A DNA stretch of 54,716 nt from an uncultured Paracoccaceae bacterium (lineage in GTDB: Bacteria > Pseudomonadota > Alphaproteobacteria > Rhodobacterales > Rhodobacteraceae), in assembly GCA_947499715.1 (NCBI GenBank), contig CANMPL010000012.1:1-54716 (forward strand), written 5' to 3'. A program made the position numbers and the translations under genes. Shown here one piece after another: positions 153-7,935 of this stretch (position 1 is its first letter; each line of letters opens with the position of its first letter). Under the pieces are notes generated by a model. That model ran no database searches, was not told where the DNA came from, and saw nothing but the letters and a program-made list of their open reading frames with translations.

Positions 153-1268
153 CTACACATCCGGTCCTTTAAGCTCTAGCCAGTACCGAGTGTAGCGGCG
201 TTCGCCGGTACGCTTAAGTGCACCAAGCTCGACAAGTTCCTGAAGATCCCTGGTTGCCGTTGCCCGCGATGTCCCGGAGATGGAAATGTAGTTCTCCGCG
301 CTCAGGCCACCTTTGAACCCTTCAGGCCCTTCCCGGAACATCCGCTCGATCACCTTGGCCTGTCTTTCATTCAGCGCTTCGCGATGCCGGTCGTAGAAAT
401 GCGCCTTGGCAATGAAGAAGCCCACGCGGTTGAGGGTGACTTGCTGCGCTTCCAGAACGGCCTCTGCAAACCAGACCAGCCAAGGTGTGACATCTAGCGT
501 CTTCTGGTGCCGCTCAAGTTGATCGTAATAGTCCTTCCGCTTTCGTTCGATGGTGAAGGCGAGGGCGATGAGGCTCGGCTGACCAATGTTCTGAGCAAGG
601 GACTTTTCGGCCAGAGCCCGACCCAAACGACCATTACCGTCCTCAAAGGGATGGATGCTTTCGAAGTAAAGATGGCTGAGACCGGCGCGCGTCAATGCTG
701 GTAAGGCCCCTTCCTTATTCGGCCCGGTCCGATTGAACCAGTCGACATACCGATCCATCTCATCCGGAACCTGCGCAGATGGCGGCGCCTCAAAATGTAC
801 AACCGGGCGATCAAGACGACCCGAGACGATCTGCATGGCATCCTCGTGCCGGCGATAGGACCCGATGGCCTCCAACCGTTTATCGAAAGACAAGAGCATT
901 TCGTGCCACCGGAAGAGCGTGTTGTGCTCGAGGGGCTCGGCATGGGTCGAGTATACGTCGACCATCATTTCGGCCACGCCCTGTTCCCGGGGTTTGTTCG
1001 GATAGTTGTCAGGTTCCAATCCGAGATGTCGGCGCAGCGAGGATTGCACACTGCGCCGGTCCAGCATCTCGCCTTCAATAGCACTGGTTTTCATGGCCTC
1101 ATCGCTCAGCAGGTCGATGCGGAGTTGATCACGTTCTGACGGGCCAACATGCTGAACGGCACCCAGGACTTCGCCTGACGACATCAGGAAGCGCTGCTCG
1201 AACGGTGCCAGTGATGCTGCGTCGTACCGGAAATCCGGCCAACCCGATATCTGCCAGTTCCATGCCAT
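153..1268 (-). CDS. Fic-domain protein (probable AMP transferase, class II)
   Basis: The 371-residue protein carries the canonical Fic motif HPFEDGNGRLGR at residues 206-217. His206 is the expected catalytic base for transfer of AMP (or another nucleotide monophosphate) to a protein target. An N-terminal inhibitory motif of the (S/T)xxxE(G/N) type is seen as TSAIEG at residues 61-66. That places it in the class where an N-terminal helix blocks ATP binding. The N-terminus resembles the DUF4172 domain that often precedes Fic, and the last ~70 residues look like a winged helix DNA-binding domain. The ATG overlaps the first arm of an inverted repeat, which suggests self-repression. It stands alone, convergent with nothing inside the window. 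The target is unknown. Family call is firm; the role (signalling, toxin-like, plasmid maintenance) is inference. Confidence 0.93.
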   Translation of the reverse strand: MAWNWQISGWPDFRYDAASLAPFEQRFLMSSGEVLGAVQHVGPSERDQLRIDLLSDEAMKTSAIEGEMLDRRSVQSSLRRHLGLEPDNYPNKPREQGVAEMMVDVYSTHAEPLEHNTLFRWHEMLLSFDKRLEAIGSYRRHEDAMQIVSGRLDRPVVHFEAPPSAQVPDEMDRYVDWFNRTGPNKEGALPALTRAGLSHLYFESIHPFEDGNGRLGRALAEKSLAQNIGQPSLIALAFTIERKRKDYYDQLERHQKTLDVTPWLVWFAEAVLEAQQVTLNRVGFFIAKAHFYDRHREALNERQAKVIERMFREGPEGFKGGLSAENYISISGTSRATATRDLQELVELGALKRTGERRYTRYWLELKGPDV

Positions 1269-1424: not shown

Positions 1425-2057
1425 TCAGACCTGCGCTGTCCGCGTCTTCTCATCTGCGTTTCCAACAGCCAAATCCAACTCAGGCAAATCCCGCAACGAC
1501 TGCAGATCAAACGTCTTCAAAAACGTCTCCGTCGTCACGAAGGTATGCGGCGCGCCCGGCCGCGGCGACCGCGGGCCGCTGGCAATCATATCCTTGTAGC
1601 GCAGCCGTGCCAGCAGATCGCGGCTGACGTCCTTCCCGAAGATGTCCTTCAGACCGGCCCGATCGATGGGCTGATGATAGGCAATGGCACAGAGCACGCC
1701 CATTTCCATCTCGGTGAAGGCAAGCGACTGGTCGCCGAGATCGGCGGCCGCCTTGATGGCATCGGCGAACTGGGTCTTCGTTCGAAACATCCAGCCGCCG
1801 GAGACCTGCGCCAGCTCGTAGGGTCGGCCAACCACCTCGGACTGGATGTCGTCGATCAGCATCTCGACGGACGCCCCCTGCCCGACCACGCGTGCGAGAT
1901 CGTCGCGACTAACCGGCGTCGCACTGGCAAAGAGCACCGCCTCGATCCGCCCCATCCACTCGCGCCAGCGCAGCTCCTGCGGCAGCTCGTCGAGCTCGCG
2001 ATCAAAGACAGCCTCGCCCTCCTCCACGGGTTTCCGATTCTTGGTCGAGACCGTCAT
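1425..2057 (-). CDS. scpB: ScpB-like SMC-complex accessory protein
   Basis: The 210-residue protein has the tandem winged-helix layout of ScpB. The recognisable stretches are WREWMGRIEAVLFAS near residue 30, AFTEMEMGVLCAIAYHQPIDRAGL in the middle, and a second winged helix with VSRDLLARLRYKDMI. It ends in the usual PGAPHTFVTT segment. ScpB normally pairs with the kleisin ScpA and an SMC ATPase in chromosome condensation. No scpA or smc is in this window, so this plasmid copy may serve another partner. Its start overlaps the end of the upstream DUF1403 gene by 4 bp (ATGA), so the two are almost certainly co-translated. Length is close to chromosomal ScpB. Confidence 0.85.
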   Translation of the reverse strand: MTVSTKNRKPVEEGEAVFDRELDELPQELRWREWMGRIEAVLFASATPVSRDDLARVVGQGASVEMLIDDIQSEVVGRPYELAQVSGGWMFRTKTQFADAIKAAADLGDQSLAFTEMEMGVLCAIAYHQPIDRAGLKDIFGKDVSRDLLARLRYKDMIASGPRSPRPGAPHTFVTTETFLKTFDLQSLRDLPELDLAVGNADEKTRTAQV

Positions 2058-3007
2058 GGCGCAATCCCATAGAGCCTGAAGGTTGATCGCCCGGTGAGTT
2101 CCTGCGCCACCCCCAGTTCGACCAACCGGTCGCAGAACCGCCGCGCGGCGCGGTCGGTCATGGGGATCGTGGTTCCCCGAATGCGCGGCGAGAGCATCGT
2201 TGAGGGCGCCACGGCATCCTCAGAAAGGAACAGTGCGACGGCCGCGTCTGATCCTTTTGCCCGGAGCTTCGGAGCGACGCCGCGAAGCGCCTCCGCGCGG
2301 CGGGCGAGGTCCCGCGCCACCCGGATCGTCTCTTCGATGGACTCGAGGACACGCACCTGGACCGCCAGCTCGGCCCCCTGCCCGTCTGCGACCAGGTCCC
2401 GCAGCGCCGCCTTCGTCAGCCGCCGTGCCGAAACCGGCAGCACTGACGTCCAGTTCAATGCCCGCGCCAGAACGATGTCCGAGAGCAGGCAGGCGACCCG
2501 TTCCGCTCGGTCGTCCGTTTCCAAAACGGCACGCAGGACGGCCACGCAGCCCGCCAGTGGTCCGTGGGTTCGGGTCCGCTCCAAACCCGCATCGAGCCAG
2601 ACGCCCACCTCGCTCACGAAGTCCACACCAACCAAGTCAACGATCTCACCCGTCCCGCCTGGTCGCAACCGGACAGCTCCGCGCCAGAAAGCCAGAATAT
2701 CACCATCCGGTCCCCGCGCTTCGCCCGGCGGCGTCAGATGATAGGCATCGCGGATATCCGCCTCCCGCGCCAACCGTCCTTCCAGCTTCGAGGTCGCCGT
2801 GGCCGCGCTCAGCGCCAACTTGTTGGCCAGCAGTTTCACGGGCACATGATTGGTCAGGTCGGTGATCAGTTGATCCAGCACAGTCAGGGCCGCCCCGGAC
2901 CGAAATGCCACAGTTTCAAAGGTTTCCGCACGTCCGGAGGTGACCCACAAAGGCAGCTTCGGTAAGTTGTTAAGGTCGTCGGAGATAGCTGTGGGGTGGT
3001 AGGTCAT
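2054..3007 (-). CDS. DUF1403 family protein
   Basis: The 317-residue protein matches the pattern I associate with DUF1403. It has a LPLWVTSGRAETFETVAFRSGAAL N-terminal block, a helical middle with the ANKLALSAATATSKLEGR segment, and a C-terminal winged-helix-like block (DRAARRFCDRLVELGVAQELTGRSTFRLYGI). No signal peptide or membrane segment is visible. The biochemical role is unknown. It is translationally coupled to the ScpB-like gene and divergent from a tyrosine recombinase. Family knowledge is that these three genes tend to travel together on alphaproteobacterial plasmids. The C-terminal block suggests DNA binding, which is inference. Confidence 0.8.
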   Translation of the reverse strand: MTYHPTAISDDLNNLPKLPLWVTSGRAETFETVAFRSGAALTVLDQLITDLTNHVPVKLLANKLALSAATATSKLEGRLAREADIRDAYHLTPPGEARGPDGDILAFWRGAVRLRPGGTGEIVDLVGVDFVSEVGVWLDAGLERTRTHGPLAGCVAVLRAVLETDDRAERVACLLSDIVLARALNWTSVLPVSARRLTKAALRDLVADGQGAELAVQVRVLESIEETIRVARDLARRAEALRGVAPKLRAKGSDAAVALFLSEDAVAPSTMLSPRIRGTTIPMTDRAARRFCDRLVELGVAQELTGRSTFRLYGIAP

Positions 3008-3082
3008 ACCACAAGACTATCCTGTCGCGGCGCTTTCGTCCACATTACGATGTGCAAACCGCCCCACCTTACCGGTCTTTTT

Positions 3083-3115
3083 TACGTCCAATAAGTTTGC
3101 CATTTATCGGACATA
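3083..3115. promoter_or_regulatory. Lox/dif-like inverted repeat between DUF1403 and the recombinase
   Basis: TACGTCCAATAA (3083-3094) and TTATCGGACATA (3104-3115) are inverted arms matching at 10 of 12 positions, separated by 9 nt. The symmetry extends outward as T-rich/A-rich flanks. Two ~12-bp arms around a short spacer are the architecture of a tyrosine recombinase core site. It lies in the divergent intergenic region next to the recombinase gene. An operator for either gene is the main alternative. Confidence 0.5.
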
Positions 3116-3135
3116 AAAAGAGTATGCTCAGATAC

Positions 3136-4254
3136 ATGACCAAAACATACAAACATCAGGCCCAACAGACTGAGAAATCGCGCGCAGCCTCTGTAGATGC
3201 GACGCATGATGACGCGCGCGACGAGAGAAGACATACTGGAACCGATGCGATCGCCCTGCCCTCTCACGTCGCAGGGTCCGGCACGCTCGATCGGTTGGTT
3301 GAGACTGCACGCGACTACGCAAAAGCCGCGACAGCCGAGAACACCAACAAGGCTTATGCCGCGGACTGGAAACACTTCGCGCTTTGGTGCCGGTTGAAAG
3401 GTACGGCCCCCCTGCCCCCGTCAACAGAATTGATCGGCCTTTATCTGACCGATCTCGCTGCTCCAAACGACGCGACCCCTGCCCTTTCCGTTTCTACAAT
3501 CGACCGGCGGCTTTCCGGCCTTGCATGGAACTATGCGCAGCGCGGTTTCGCTTTGGATCGTAAAGACCGCCATATCGCAACCGTGCTTGCTGGGGTCAAA
3601 CGCAAGCACGCGCGCCCACCAGTACAGAAAGAAGCCATTATGGCGGACGATATTCTCGCCATGGTAGCCACCCTGCCCCACGACCTACGCGGGTTGCGGG
3701 ATCGCGCCATTTTGCTTTTGGGCTATGCGGGCGGGCTGCGGCGTTCCGAGATTGTTGGTCTCGACCATGGCAAGGACGACACCATCGACAGCAGCGGCTG
3801 GGTCGACATCCTCGACGATGGAGCAGTTCTGACCCTGAATGCCAAGACCGGCTGGCGCGAGGTCGAGATCGGGCACGGATCGTCCGATCAGACCTGCCCC
3901 GTGAATGCCCTGGAACAATGGCTGCATTTTGCAAAAATCGACTTTGGGCCGGTCTTTGTGAGGACATCCCGCGATGGCAAACGCGCGTTGGAGACTCGGC
4001 TGAATGACAAATATGTTGCTCGTTTGATCAAGCAGACGGTACTGGATGCCGGCATTCGCTCCGACCTGCCCACGAAAGATCGCCTTGCCTTGTTCTCTGG
4101 CCATAGCTTGCGGGCTGGACTTGCCAGCTCTGTCGAAGTGGACGAGCGCTACCTGCAAAAGCACCTTGGCCATGCCTCGGCAGAGATGACTCGCCGCTAT
4201 CAACGGCGCAGGGATCGCTTCCGAGTAAATTTGACAAAGGCCGCGGGACTCTAA
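3136..4254 (+). CDS. Tyrosine-type site-specific recombinase/integrase
   Basis: The protein has an N-terminal SAM-like core-binding domain (TAENTNKAYAADWKHFALWC) and a C-terminal catalytic domain. With the ATG at 3136 (372 residues) the catalytic set reads Arg202 (GLRRSE), His323 and Arg326 (HSLRAG), His346 (HLGH) and the nucleophile Tyr355. All canonical residues except the poorly conserved Lys are visible. The reading frame stays open back to a GTG at 3052. That start would place the intergenic inverted repeat inside the gene, so 3124 or 3136 is preferred. It faces away from the DUF1403-ScpB pair and precedes repA. It could resolve plasmid multimers or integrate the element; neither can be decided from sequence. 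Confidence 0.92.
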   Translation: MTKTYKHQAQQTEKSRAASVDATHDDARDERRHTGTDAIALPSHVAGSGTLDRLVETARDYAKAATAENTNKAYAADWKHFALWCRLKGTAPLPPSTELIGLYLTDLAAPNDATPALSVSTIDRRLSGLAWNYAQRGFALDRKDRHIATVLAGVKRKHARPPVQKEAIMADDILAMVATLPHDLRGLRDRAILLLGYAGGLRRSEIVGLDHGKDDTIDSSGWVDILDDGAVLTLNAKTGWREVEIGHGSSDQTCPVNALEQWLHFAKIDFGPVFVRTSRDGKRALETRLNDKYVARLIKQTVLDAGIRSDLPTKDRLALFSGHSLRAGLASSVEVDERYLQKHLGHASAEMTRRYQRRRDRFRVNLTKAAGL

Positions 4255-4473: not shown

Positions 4474-5673
4474 ATGGACAATCATAACCTTGGATTAGTA
4501 CAGGGCATAGGGTCATCAGATATCGGAGCATTCGCCGACAATTTGGCTGAGTCTCTCGATCGGCAAATGAAAGTTGCCTTTGAGCCCGAAGAACGCAAGT
4601 CCCTGCGCCGGTTTAGTTCGTCTGAAGTCGCAGAATTTCTACGGGTTAGTACTTCAAACCTACGCAACCGCCATAAAGACGGTAGTTTTCCGGATGTTTA
4701 CACGGACAATCGCGGTCATCGGTCATACACCACCGACGAGGTAGATACTTTGCGCGGCATTCTGAGCCGTACAGGCAAAAACGCCGAAAGCTATTTACCG
4801 GGTCGCCGCGATGGTGACCGCCTTCAGGTCATTTCCGTTGTAAATTTCAAAGGCGGCTCTTCAAAAACCACGGCTACGATTCATCTCGCACAACGATATG
4901 CCCTGCGCGGCTATCGCGTATTAGTGCTCGACCTTGATCCGCAAGCCAGCCTGACGACATTTTTCGGGTTTCGGCCTGAGCTTGAGTTCGCCGAAGGTGG
5001 CACGATCTACGACGCCCTCAGATATGAGGACCAAGTCCCACTCTCCTCTGTCATCCAGAAAACCTACTTCCATAAGCTTGATATGGTTCCGGCTGGTTTG
5101 ATGCTCTCCGAATACGAGACTGAAACGGCTAACGCCCTTGCAAACCGAATACAGCCAATTTTCGCTGAGCGTCTCTCGCAAGCTCTGGAGGAGGTCGAAG
5201 CGGACTACGACATCGTCTTGATCGACTGTCCACCACAGTTAGGCTTTCTAACCTTAACCGCGCTTTCCGCATCGACAGGTCTGCTGGTGACTGTGGTGCC
5301 AGGCATGTTGGACATTGCATCGATGAGCCAATTCCTCAAGCTGGCCTCGGAAACAGTAAAGGCCGTTGAAGAAGCCATCGGACGGCGCGTGACATGGGAT
5401 TTTGTCAAATTCCTAATAACCAGATATGAGCCGTCGGACGGCCCACAGACGCAAATGGCCGGTTACCTTAGATCTATTCTTGCAGGCCAAGTTATGACTG
5501 AGCCGATGCTAAAATCAACGGCCATATCGGACGCGGGGATGACGCAACAAACCGTCTATGAGGTTGATCCAAGTCAGTTCATTCGAAAAACGATCGATCG
5601 TGCACTGACTAGTGTGAACGGAGTTGCCGACGAGCTTGAGCAGACAATTCAAATGGCATGGGGGCGCCGGTAA
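4474..5673 (+). CDS. repA: Plasmid partitioning ATPase RepA (ParA family)
   Basis: The 399-residue protein starts with a ~110-residue N-terminal region containing a MerR-like helix-turn-helix (SSSEVAEFLRVSTSNLRNRHKDG). A ParA ATPase domain follows, opening with a deviant Walker A motif (FKGGSSKTT) near residues 126-134. Further motifs are LVLDLDPQASLTTFFG and DIVLIDCPPQLGFLT. This is the usual architecture and length of RepA in repABC replicons. RepA powers plasmid segregation on the nucleoid with RepB and represses the operon. Its stop overlaps the repB start (TAATG), which supports co-translation. Confidence 0.95.
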   Translation: MDNHNLGLVQGIGSSDIGAFADNLAESLDRQMKVAFEPEERKSLRRFSSSEVAEFLRVSTSNLRNRHKDGSFPDVYTDNRGHRSYTTDEVDTLRGILSRTGKNAESYLPGRRDGDRLQVISVVNFKGGSSKTTATIHLAQRYALRGYRVLVLDLDPQASLTTFFGFRPELEFAEGGTIYDALRYEDQVPLSSVIQKTYFHKLDMVPAGLMLSEYETETANALANRIQPIFAERLSQALEEVEADYDIVLIDCPPQLGFLTLTALSASTGLLVTVVPGMLDIASMSQFLKLASETVKAVEEAIGRRVTWDFVKFLITRYEPSDGPQTQMAGYLRSILAGQVMTEPMLKSTAISDAGMTQQTVYEVDPSQFIRKTIDRALTSVNGVADELEQTIQMAWGRR

Positions 5674-6641
5674 TGGCACGCAATATTTTCAACCAGCCCC
5701 CAAAAGAAAATGATCAAGCGATCGCCGCACCCCCTGCCCCATCAAAAGCAGCAAAACTACCTGGATCCGTTGGCGGGTTGCGTGACTCACTTCGTGAGAT
5801 CACTGCAAATTCGATCCGCGATATCGATCCTTCTCAGATCGACATGGATGGCCTGCGAGATCGTCTCGTTCTAGAGGACGGCGGCATTGATGAGTTAGCC
5901 AAAAGTATCGGAAAACATGGGCAGCAGGTCCCCATCATGGTCCGGCCATCGAGCCAGCCTGATCGGTATCGGGTTGTCTACGGTCGACGGAGGCTTGCTG
6001 CGATCCGAAAAACTGGCGGGATGGTCAAAGCTATCGTTCGAACGCTAGATGACGAAGCATCGCTCTTGGCTCAAGGCCAAGAGAATAACCTTCGCCTGGA
6101 TCCATCATTCATTGAAAAATCGTTATTTATCAAAGATATGCAGGAAGCTGGGTACAAACCTAGCGTGATTCAGGATGCGCTCGGGCTTACGAGGCAAGGC
6201 GTATCCAACCACCGAGTTGTTCTGGATCAGCTGCCGCTAAAGGTAGTCGAGATCATCGGACCTGCCCATGGGATTGGGCGGCGTCAGTGGGGTGAGCTGG
6301 CGACGCTCTCAAAAAGAGTTGATATAGTTAGAGTTGCCAAAGAAACCCTTTCTAGGCTCCCCAGCGAGACCTCCAGTGCAGAGAAGTTTCAGGCAGCCTA
6401 CCTAGCTTGTTCAAGCAAGGCTCGTGTGGCCAAAAAACCAGCAAAGCAGCAAAAGACAACCCTAATCAAGACAAGAGATGATGCCGCCATTGGGACGCTC
6501 TCCGTCACTGAAAAGGCAATAGCCGTAAAGATCGTCCGAAAAGACAACCAAGAATTCAGCCAATGGTTTGAACAGCATGCCGAAGCATCGCTAATCAAGC
6601 TCTTCGACCAATGGCAGGATGAAAACGGTTCGGGAAAATAG
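5673..6641 (+). CDS. repB: Plasmid partitioning protein RepB (ParB family)
   Basis: The frame is open from 5658, but the ATG at 5673 overlaps the repA stop as TAATG and gives the natural N-terminus MARNIF (322 residues). The ParB N-terminal domain shows GKHGQQVPIMVRPS, the YGRRRLAAIRKTG arginine patch and the QGQENNLR box around residues 90-145. A helix-turn-helix follows (KPSVIQDALGLTRQGVSNHRVVL). RepB binds parS-like palindromes and links the plasmid to RepA. The perfect palindromes just downstream of repC are the probable binding sites. Confidence 0.94.
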   Translation: MARNIFNQPPKENDQAIAAPPAPSKAAKLPGSVGGLRDSLREITANSIRDIDPSQIDMDGLRDRLVLEDGGIDELAKSIGKHGQQVPIMVRPSSQPDRYRVVYGRRRLAAIRKTGGMVKAIVRTLDDEASLLAQGQENNLRLDPSFIEKSLFIKDMQEAGYKPSVIQDALGLTRQGVSNHRVVLDQLPLKVVEIIGPAHGIGRRQWGELATLSKRVDIVRVAKETLSRLPSETSSAEKFQAAYLACSSKARVAKKPAKQQKTTLIKTRDDAAIGTLSVTEKAIAVKIVRKDNQEFSQWFEQHAEASLIKLFDQWQDENGSGK

Positions 6642-6689
6642 CCCAAACCACACCTAGAAACACAAACTGAGGAGATACGAGAAGACCAG

Positions 6690-6743
6690 AAAGAAAAGAG
6701 CCCCCCAAAGTTTCCCCTGGAGAGCCCTCATCGTTTGATTAGC
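6690..6743 (-). ncRNA. Candidate counter-transcribed RNA (incompatibility RNA) of repABC
   Basis: The repB-repC gap carries a good promoter on the minus strand (separate entry) firing back toward repB. The predicted transcript runs ~55 nt and ends in a G-rich stem, GAG(GG)CTCTCC pairing with GGGGGGCTC, followed by TTTTCTTTCT. A small antisense RNA here is a universal feature of repABC plasmids and limits repC expression by pairing with its leader. The ends are estimated by eye. Confidence 0.5.
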
Positions 6744-6749
6744 ATCTAA

Positions 6750-6778
6750 GATGTAGCAACCTCCAACATTACCGTCAA
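6750..6778 (-). promoter_or_regulatory. Promoter of the repB-repC antisense RNA
   Basis: Read on the minus strand the region gives TTGACG, exactly 17 nt, then TACATC. This is a close match to a housekeeping -35/-10 pair with optimal spacing. Confidence 0.55.
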
Positions 6779-6870
6779 GAGTCACCGATTCGGTGGACGT
6801 CTTTTTGTTGCCTTTTCTCGTGTTTATTCGCGTGAAAAGCTGGGAAAGCTATGGGCCAAACGGTCCTCGT

Positions 6871-7935
6871 ATGCAGAGCATGGCATTTACAAAACTATCA
6901 ATCGGAACTGGTGGCCCTGGTTCAGTGTCGAAAACCACGTCAGAGCCCGCAAAAGACATCTGGACAATTTTCAGAGCACTTCGGGACGCACGCAAACAGT
7001 TCGACCTACGCCCAGCCCACCTACAGACGCTACAAGCAATGTTGAGTTTCCTGAGACCCGGCCAAGGCGACACCGTCTTTGCATCCAATCAATCGATTTG
7101 TCAGCGTGTCGGTGGCATCGACGAGCGAACCCTCCGTCGGCACATTAACCGGTTCATAGAGACCGGACTTATCGAACGGAATGACAGCTCAAACCGCAAA
7201 CGCTACCGTGTAAGGTCCTCGGACGGCGAGTGCATCAGCTATGGACTATCATTGACACCGCTGCTTCAACGCGCATCCGAACTCATATCGCTTGCCAAAA
7301 AAATCGAAGAAGCTCGCCGAGACCAAATCTTCCTGAGAAAACAAATCCTGACAGGGTTGGCACACCTAGATTCGGTCGACCCAGGAAACACCTTTGCGAT
7401 ATCTACTCGAAAGGTTCTCAGAAGGAAACTTAGCGTCACCGAATACCGAGCAGTTCTCAACAAAACGAAGGCAGAATGCAGCTCTCAATCGCAAACAATA
7501 AAAGCTCCAAAAACAACAAAAGTGTCCGTCAATGACGGTCAAACTGTCCGGCATCTATCTAAGTCTGTAAAAGAACAAAAGGATTCAAGAGACCAAGTTA
7601 GTGAGAACAAGATTGCTCCAAGTCAACTAACAGCAGTTTGTGATCAGGCAACTTCGTTCAGTAATAGAGAACTTAGAAACTGGACTGAGATTGAATGCCA
7701 CGCTCATACACTCGCCCCAATGATGGGCATTCACAAAGAAACCTTTAACAAGGCAAGAGCAACTGTTGGCTCAATAAAGGCGTCCTGCGCTATCTTCATC
7801 ATGTTGCAGCTGGGAAATAGCATTAGGGATTTCAGTGCATACTTCCATAGCATCACTTTAGGTAATCGCCGAGATCAGTTTGATCCGGCCATCCTACTAA
7901 GGCGACTGTCAAAAACACATGAGGCGATAGCATGA
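6871..7935 (+). CDS. repC: Replication initiator RepC
   Basis: The sequence follows RepC: KDIWTIFRALRDARKQFDLRPAHLQTLQAMLSFL near the N-terminus, then the winged-helix block SNQSICQRVGGIDERTLRRHINRFIETGLIERNDSSNRKRY and GYGLSL-like GECISYGLSL. A variable linker with charged and serine-rich stretches leads to a C-terminal ETFNKARATVGSIKASCAIFIMLQ block. RepC initiates replication, and the origin usually lies inside its own gene. The frame is open from a GTG at 6793, but that lies in the antisense-controlled leader. ATG 6871 (354 residues) or 6880 is more likely; neither has a clear Shine-Dalgarno, as expected for a tightly limited initiator. Confidence 0.9.
   Translation: MQSMAFTKLSIGTGGPGSVSKTTSEPAKDIWTIFRALRDARKQFDLRPAHLQTLQAMLSFLRPGQGDTVFASNQSICQRVGGIDERTLRRHINRFIETGLIERNDSSNRKRYRVRSSDGECISYGLSLTPLLQRASELISLAKKIEEARRDQIFLRKQILTGLAHLDSVDPGNTFAISTRKVLRRKLSVTEYRAVLNKTKAECSSQSQTIKAPKTTKVSVNDGQTVRHLSKSVKEQKDSRDQVSENKIAPSQLTAVCDQATSFSNRELRNWTEIECHAHTLAPMMGIHKETFNKARATVGSIKASCAIFIMLQLGNSIRDFSAYFHSITLGNRRDQFDPAILLRRLSKTHEAIA

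Follow-up and report, generated by a model that had tools for sequence, protein, structure and literature searches.

A tyrosine recombinase gene that diverges from a DUF1403-scpB gene pair, with two inverted repeats in between, forms a conserved module in the window (the whole 54.7-kb stretch analyzed here, which is an entire contig, C12, of a 4.0-Mb genome in 44 contigs). The module recurs among relatives with the same predicted crossover site (the core), located at a fixed distance from a second inverted repeat (IR2); pairs of relatives switch from alike to unlike sequence at the core; and the DUF1403 protein has a Fic-like fold without the Fic motif. On balance, this is probably a plasmid-borne site-specific recombination module, in which DUF1403 and ScpB would serve as an IR2-bound autoregulator and helper.

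All these genes lie in the left part of C12 (Table 1). The gene set, its orientation and the neighboring repABC genes, all proposed in a first-pass annotation, are borne out by profile matches, including those to PF04079, PF07183, and PF00589. That annotation had also described DUF1403 and ScpB as fused, which is not the case: these are two open reading frames, with a 4-nt overlap (ATGA) between the scpB frame and the DUF1403 stop, an arrangement that fits translational coupling. The inverted repeat noted between the divergent genes is real, with 16-nt arms that are 88% complementary and 9 nt apart (3079-3094/3104-3119); if the recombinase started at GTG 3052, this repeat would fall within the gene. 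An intact-looking Fic gene (DUF4172-Fic, motif HPFEDGNGR; positions 153-1268, minus strand) adjoins the DUF1403-ScpB module, and a Fic gene likewise flanks the module in Mesorhizobium huakuii (L122). Contig C17 of the same genome carries a second DUF1403-ScpB module (L002, G000:C17:34990-37990), with no recombinase in the 3 kb examined; the only recombinase match in the genome at E ≤ 1e-10 is the one in the window.

Table 1. Features of the module and its surroundings in the window, and Tni-type genes near the module in related loci
Feature	Position	Strand	Remarks
Plasmid ScpB gene	1425..2057	-	210 aa; PF04079, E 3.3e-32
DUF1403 gene	2054..3007	-	317 aa; PF07183, E 4.5e-95; in the model, Fic-like fold (no Fic motif) with a winged helix at the C terminus
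IR2, second inverted repeat, GGCGGTTT-N19-AAAGCGCC	3029..3063	-	Putative operator, possible accessory site
Core, predicted crossover site, arms ACGTCCAATAA / TTATCGGACAT, 9-nt center	3084..3114		Extended inverted repeat 3079-3119
Tyrosine recombinase gene	3124..4254	+	PF00589, E 3.8e-13; start ATG 3124 or 3136
repA, repB, repC	4474..7935	+	TIGR03453, TIGR03454, NF040974 above cut-off; replication and partition context
Tni-type genes (related loci)	L016:4305-7853, L127:4919-7729, L005:7568-10085, L126:1-1749, L129:1-401, L009:374-4115		

The conservation of the module was assessed in a set of 102 loci, comprising 80 contig loci, 20 plasmid regions, the window, and the C17 module. The contig loci are the best 80 of at least 559 confirmed ones, picked by likeness to the window DUF1403 and mostly from Rhodobacterales. 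L006, taken as a duplicate of L035 with the same sites, was left out of the module counts and kept in the core and IR2 counts, and L080, whose recombinase is in two weak fragments, was scored as lacking one. ScpB directly follows DUF1403 in 97 of the 99 loci with enough downstream sequence, and a recombinase is present in 74 of the 92 with enough upstream sequence, being divergent and within 600 nt in 65 of these 92. The core is found in 91 of 101 loci and a rep gene in the examined flank of 64 of 102. Thus, the three genes and the inverted repeat, whose co-occurrence had been put forward for checking, make up one conserved module, and homologous loci do not as a rule lack the repeat. The core is missing in 8 of the 18 loci without a recombinase versus 1 of the 74 with one.

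A separate sample of 295 genomes of the family, in which DUF1403 was called at its cut-off (dropping G445, G475, G483, G618, and G642, whose DUF1403 matches fall below it) and the recombinase at E ≤ 1e-60, gives a similar picture. DUF1403 is encoded in 57 genomes, the recombinase in 57, and both in 54 (Fisher P = 1.4e-51, the genomes being related). The exact core occurs in 43 of the 57 genomes with the recombinase, leaving 14 without it, and in 0 of the 238 without the recombinase; the core pattern read backwards occurs in none of the 295. Among ten genomes chosen for their recombinase-less modules, 7 have a recombinase match, and two, G387 and G389, have an exact site and no recombinase at E ≤ 1e-60. 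In G420, G527, and G636, exact sites are on contigs other than those of DUF1403 and the recombinase. With these exceptions, the core travels with the recombinase.

DUF1403 matches are found in 637 of 72,556 plasmid records. One locus holds a damaged, fused copy, in which DUF1403 and ScpB matches share one open frame and part of DUF1403 lies in another (L071:5992-7464). A repABC plasmid with the module (L014; CP070277.1) is labeled Dysgonomonadaceae (Bacteroidota), possibly in error; this record aside, repABC and the module are alphaproteobacterial in the data examined. Gene pairs of the toxin-antitoxin type lie between recombinase and core in three loci (L015:3074-3888, L122:2584-3256, and L128:2348-3006); such pairs have been reported near the resolution sites of Tn3-family transposons (PMC7157771). 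In addition, Tni-type transposition genes (Mu-type transposase, TniB, and TniQ) are close to the module in six loci (Table 1), perhaps because these elements target resolution sites.

The window contains a single copy of the core pattern GTCCRATA-N5..15-TATYGGAC, and 100 shuffles give none; with N7..11 the pattern occurs in only two places genome-wide, in the window and upstream of the C17 DUF1403 module. The family consensus is WYGTCCGATAA-N7-TTATYGGACRT; in most aligned loci the core begins 105 nt before the DUF1403 ATG, and the centers include TGCAAAC, GGCAAAC, and TGCAAGA. The window and C17 cores have a common 9-nt center, ATGGCAAAC, whereas the other full sites of the locus set have 7 nt there, as do 53 of the 55 exact sites in the family genomes, the two exceptions being those of the window's own genome. 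Since its center is 9 and not 7 nt long, the window copy may be altered in activity. Five low-scoring fits (spacers of 6, 8, 10, 10, and 10) in loci without a full site were treated as chance fits. At L059:5896-5924, alone among the fitted sites, the common center GGCAAAC appears in reverse complement, as GTTTGCC. Two loci have displaced recombinases (L038:2169 and L081:about 4372), each with a second, half-degenerate site beside it and separated from the intact core by over 1 kb of other DNA. Centers are shared within genomes in 4 of 7 pairs versus 0.19 expected (by eye, 6 of 12), a weak and confounded signal that was set aside. In all 12 genomes with two exact sites (draft assemblies) these are on different contigs.

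Relatives bear traces of crossover at the core. Where all three genes are present (68 loci), the correlation of pairwise identities is 0.96 between DUF1403 and ScpB, compared with 0.48 between recombinase and DUF1403, and among the 32 pairs whose recombinases are 90% identical or more, 11 have DUF1403 proteins below 60% (pairs are not independent in either count). In DNA comparisons, the recombinase side falls below 85% identity in 7 of the 15 pairs whose DUF1403 sides are nearly identical, and 8 show no contrast; the reverse contrast, an alike recombinase side with an unlike DUF1403 side, is seen in 1 of 6 pairs. From the core rightwards, all of the 7056 bp examined match at 100% between L029 and L031; the first kilobase to the left is 74% identical, and on that side 2531 bp align at 83% and, farther out, 466 bp at 94%. 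Compared base by base, L029 and L030 become identical at the left edge of the core. In L005 and L088 the 120 nt left of the core, the left arm, and the center are identical and divergence sets in from the right arm on; overall, the left side is 95% identical (1268 bp) and the right side 70-74%. Because the arms are conserved anyway, the switch point can be placed no finer than the core. L003, L071, and L089 retain the center or the right arm and have lost the left arm. A further pair, L038 and L092, which match at 100% along 2103 bp of the recombinase side, was rejected as a clean switch, as the L038 recombinase is displaced. The junctions in relatives thus appear to match what strand exchange in the core center predicts, which suggests that relatives use the core as a crossover site. 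The candidate crossover site nominated in the first-pass annotation is supported in that the repeat carries such traces in relatives. What the data reveal most directly is exchange between plasmids.

Judged by its sequence, the window enzyme qualifies as a tyrosine recombinase, having a Phage_integrase domain and the predicted catalytic residues. Enzymes of this class use the set R-K-H-R-H/W-Y, and R231, K265, H351, R354, H374, and Y383 are invariant in 10 of 10 aligned homologs. Its nearest solved relative is Cre, the enzyme of the Cre/loxP system, which needs no helper, followed by XerC-like proteins and XerD. The arms of the core are also those of SloxP (GTCCGATAA/TTATCGGAC) of the SCre/SloxP system, which is matched 100% over 34 nt in the Shewanella ANA-3 plasmid NC_008573 and in which 6 nt separate ATAA and TTAT, versus 7 in the module family and 9 in the window.

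Two described systems come close to the module. IntA of Rhizobium etli is likewise a tyrosine recombinase encoded on a plasmid, and its gene is preceded by a palindromic site (attA on p42a, attD on p42d); the 23-bp att site with a 7-nt center recombines in vivo and fuses p42a and p42d (PMC4928290). We located att-type sites in both plasmids. The attA arms TCCGATAA/TTATCGGA are the same as the family core arms, and the 7-nt center is that of the family, whereas the window center has 9 nt; with this center and an A in one arm, the window core does not match TCCGATAA-N7-TTATCGGA. Where they align, IntA and the window enzyme share 29% identity. Neither DUF1403 nor ScpB was found in the 9 kb of p42a examined, so enzymes of this kind can act without these helpers. 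The second system is that of the Tn4651-type transposons, in which tnpS is divergent from tnpT with two inverted repeat pairs (rst) in between (PMC7157771). The likeness is one of arrangement, a recombinase diverging from a helper with two inverted repeat pairs between them; the module instead has two helper genes, DUF1403 and scpB, and lies beside repABC rather than a transposase.

IR2 matches a strict pattern in 83 of 92 sites (10 of 16 outside Rhodobacterales), with its left arm at offset 20 from the core in 83 of 83 and its right arm at 47 in 82; a looser fit is found in 89 of 91 sites. L073, which begins inside DUF1403, was excluded from this analysis. By arithmetic, 52 bp (53 in the window) separate the centers of core and IR2, which corresponds to roughly five helical turns. 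Inspected by eye, the IR2 consensus could be read as a promoter (TTGTGG, 17 nt, GATAGT) with elements overlapping IR2. In three of the six loci without a recombinase or core remnant (L067, L070, and L077), IR2 occupies its usual position and scores 13-15 out of 16; in L068 it scores 12 and is two bases off, and in L064 and L076 it was not found. In the loci with half cores (L003, L071, and L089) it scores 16, and 6 of 500 control stretches reach a score of 13. IR2 therefore tends to accompany DUF1403-ScpB and not the core. It is probably the operator of the DUF1403-scpB operon. It is also a possible accessory site of recombination, and the fixed distance to the core may stem from the descent of the promoter and not from a synapse.

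The structure model of DUF1403 has a Fic-like fold followed by a C-terminal winged helix. The Fic motif H.F..GN(G/K)R is found in 0 of 77 DUF1403 proteins, whereas the neighboring Fic gene has it. Sequence comparisons of DUF1403 with the neighboring Fic protein are not significant (E of 0.061 and 0.17), although one of them aligned VLETDDRAER with the Fic motif stretch; the link between DUF1403 and Fic therefore rests on fold. Apparently, DUF1403 is a dead Fic fold with a DNA-binding domain. Fic proteins with a C-terminal winged helix are known (e.g., Shewanella SO_4266), from which DUF1403 differs in having neither the Fic motif nor a significant sequence link. Of the two roles offered earlier for DUF1403, the kleisin-like one finds no support in the model, as Fic structures lead among the matches listed and no kleisin is there, and the DNA-binding one is consistent with the winged helix. 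No DUF1403 relatives were confirmed among 41 pattern matches in viral contigs, and no entry of a viral structure library matched DUF1403 at E ≤ 0.001.

The window scpB product is clearly a member of the ScpB family and matches solved ScpB structures, although its TIGR00281 match is below the cut-off (75.1 versus 89.2 bits). It is one of three ScpB matches in the genome, two of plasmid type and one on C8. The N-terminal motif D.EL..LP...RWREW is invariant in 12 of 12 aligned plasmid copies and absent from the host's other ScpB, the two types differing at their N termini. Family membership is its likeness to the bacterial condensin SMC-ScpA-ScpB; in the module, ScpB is instead paired with DUF1403, and the genome's only ScpA match is elsewhere, adjoining the chromosomal-type scpB of C8. 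An inverted repeat, GTCCGAAATATG..TTCGGAC, lies 4 nt past the scpB stop in L032, L034, L036, L040, and L057, which makes 5 of 90 loci with it in this position; within 1.04 Mb the pattern matches 8 times in all.

In the mechanism that we favor, the recombinase would bind both arms of the core and exchange strands in its center, recombining two core copies, whether these belong to a dimer or to separate plasmids in the same cell, whereby dimers and cointegrates would be resolved or formed. DUF1403 and ScpB would be produced together from the putative promoter overlapping IR2, and we infer that their complex binds IR2 via winged helices and represses its own operon. Because IR2 is fixed at 52-53 bp from the core, the same complex may be an architectural helper that biases recombination, a role modeled on that of TnpT for TnpS at rst. 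The C17 site, with its same rare 9-nt center, could use the window recombinase in trans. Resolution of multimers and cointegrates is a plausible benefit, given that the two exact sites of a genome are on different contigs in all 12 such cases. Against a helper role, DUF1403-ScpB persists in loci without a recombinase or core and may have another job.

This persistence fits a division of labor in which the recombinase and core serve mainly plasmid fusion and replicon exchange, and DUF1403-ScpB is a separate, autoregulated maintenance operon that shares the intergenic region. The visible traces are indeed exchanges between replicons, IntA/attA fuses p42a and p42d (PMC4928290), and the C17 module, with no recombinase in the 3 kb examined, shares the 9-nt center of the window. 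We nevertheless regard such a division as possible but doubtful, given that the rates at which DUF1403 and the recombinase co-occur (54 of 57 genomes) and lie divergently side by side (65 of 92 loci) are high for unrelated neighbors and that one site per contig has the look of a resolution site. A purely regulatory repeat, that is, an operator between divergent promoters and no crossover site, would suit a position between divergent genes, where it could overlap the recombinase promoter. It is very improbable, and we reject it because sequence identity switches at the core in pairs of relatives; half-sites also remain in three loci, and the arms match attA and SloxP, both of them known recombination sites.

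ScpB might also join host ScpA and SMC, with DUF1403 making IR2 a condensin loading point and condensation bringing both sites of a dimer into proximity; the first-pass annotation had proposed such a coupling, there with a possible kleisin-like DUF1403, which has no part here. The plasmid ScpB matches solved structures of its family, some of which are ScpA-ScpB entries, and the host has a chromosomal scpA adjoining scpB. Arguing against this, scpA has no match on the window's contig, the plasmid ScpB has an N terminus unlike that of the host ScpB, and the model of DUF1403 and ScpB joined by read-through (pLDDT 78.4, pTM 0.57) gives no confident relative placement, so that we consider condensin loading unlikely. 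Equally speculative is its fullest form, SMC-guided plasmid dimer resolution, in which a dead Fic protein would be the sequence-specific DNA platform that loads plasmid ScpB and, through it, host ScpA-SMC beside the recombinase site, so that condensin would align both sites of a dimer.

In the literature searched, whose coverage leaves out most subscription papers, DUF1403 is named in no paper, and none was found on ScpB, or segregation and condensation protein, with plasmid repABC or a site-specific recombinase, Rhizobium included. The general design, a divergent site served by a recombinase and a helper, is known, and the DUF1403-ScpB helper pair appears to be new. The module, which is widespread on plasmids of marine and soil bacteria, gives the orphan family DUF1403 a testable role, and provides a ScpB that has no ScpA of its own with a partner, DUF1403, and a place. 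It also suggests a way in which halves are exchanged among the repABC plasmids found in Rhodobacterales and Hyphomicrobiales, and in which their multimers may be resolved.
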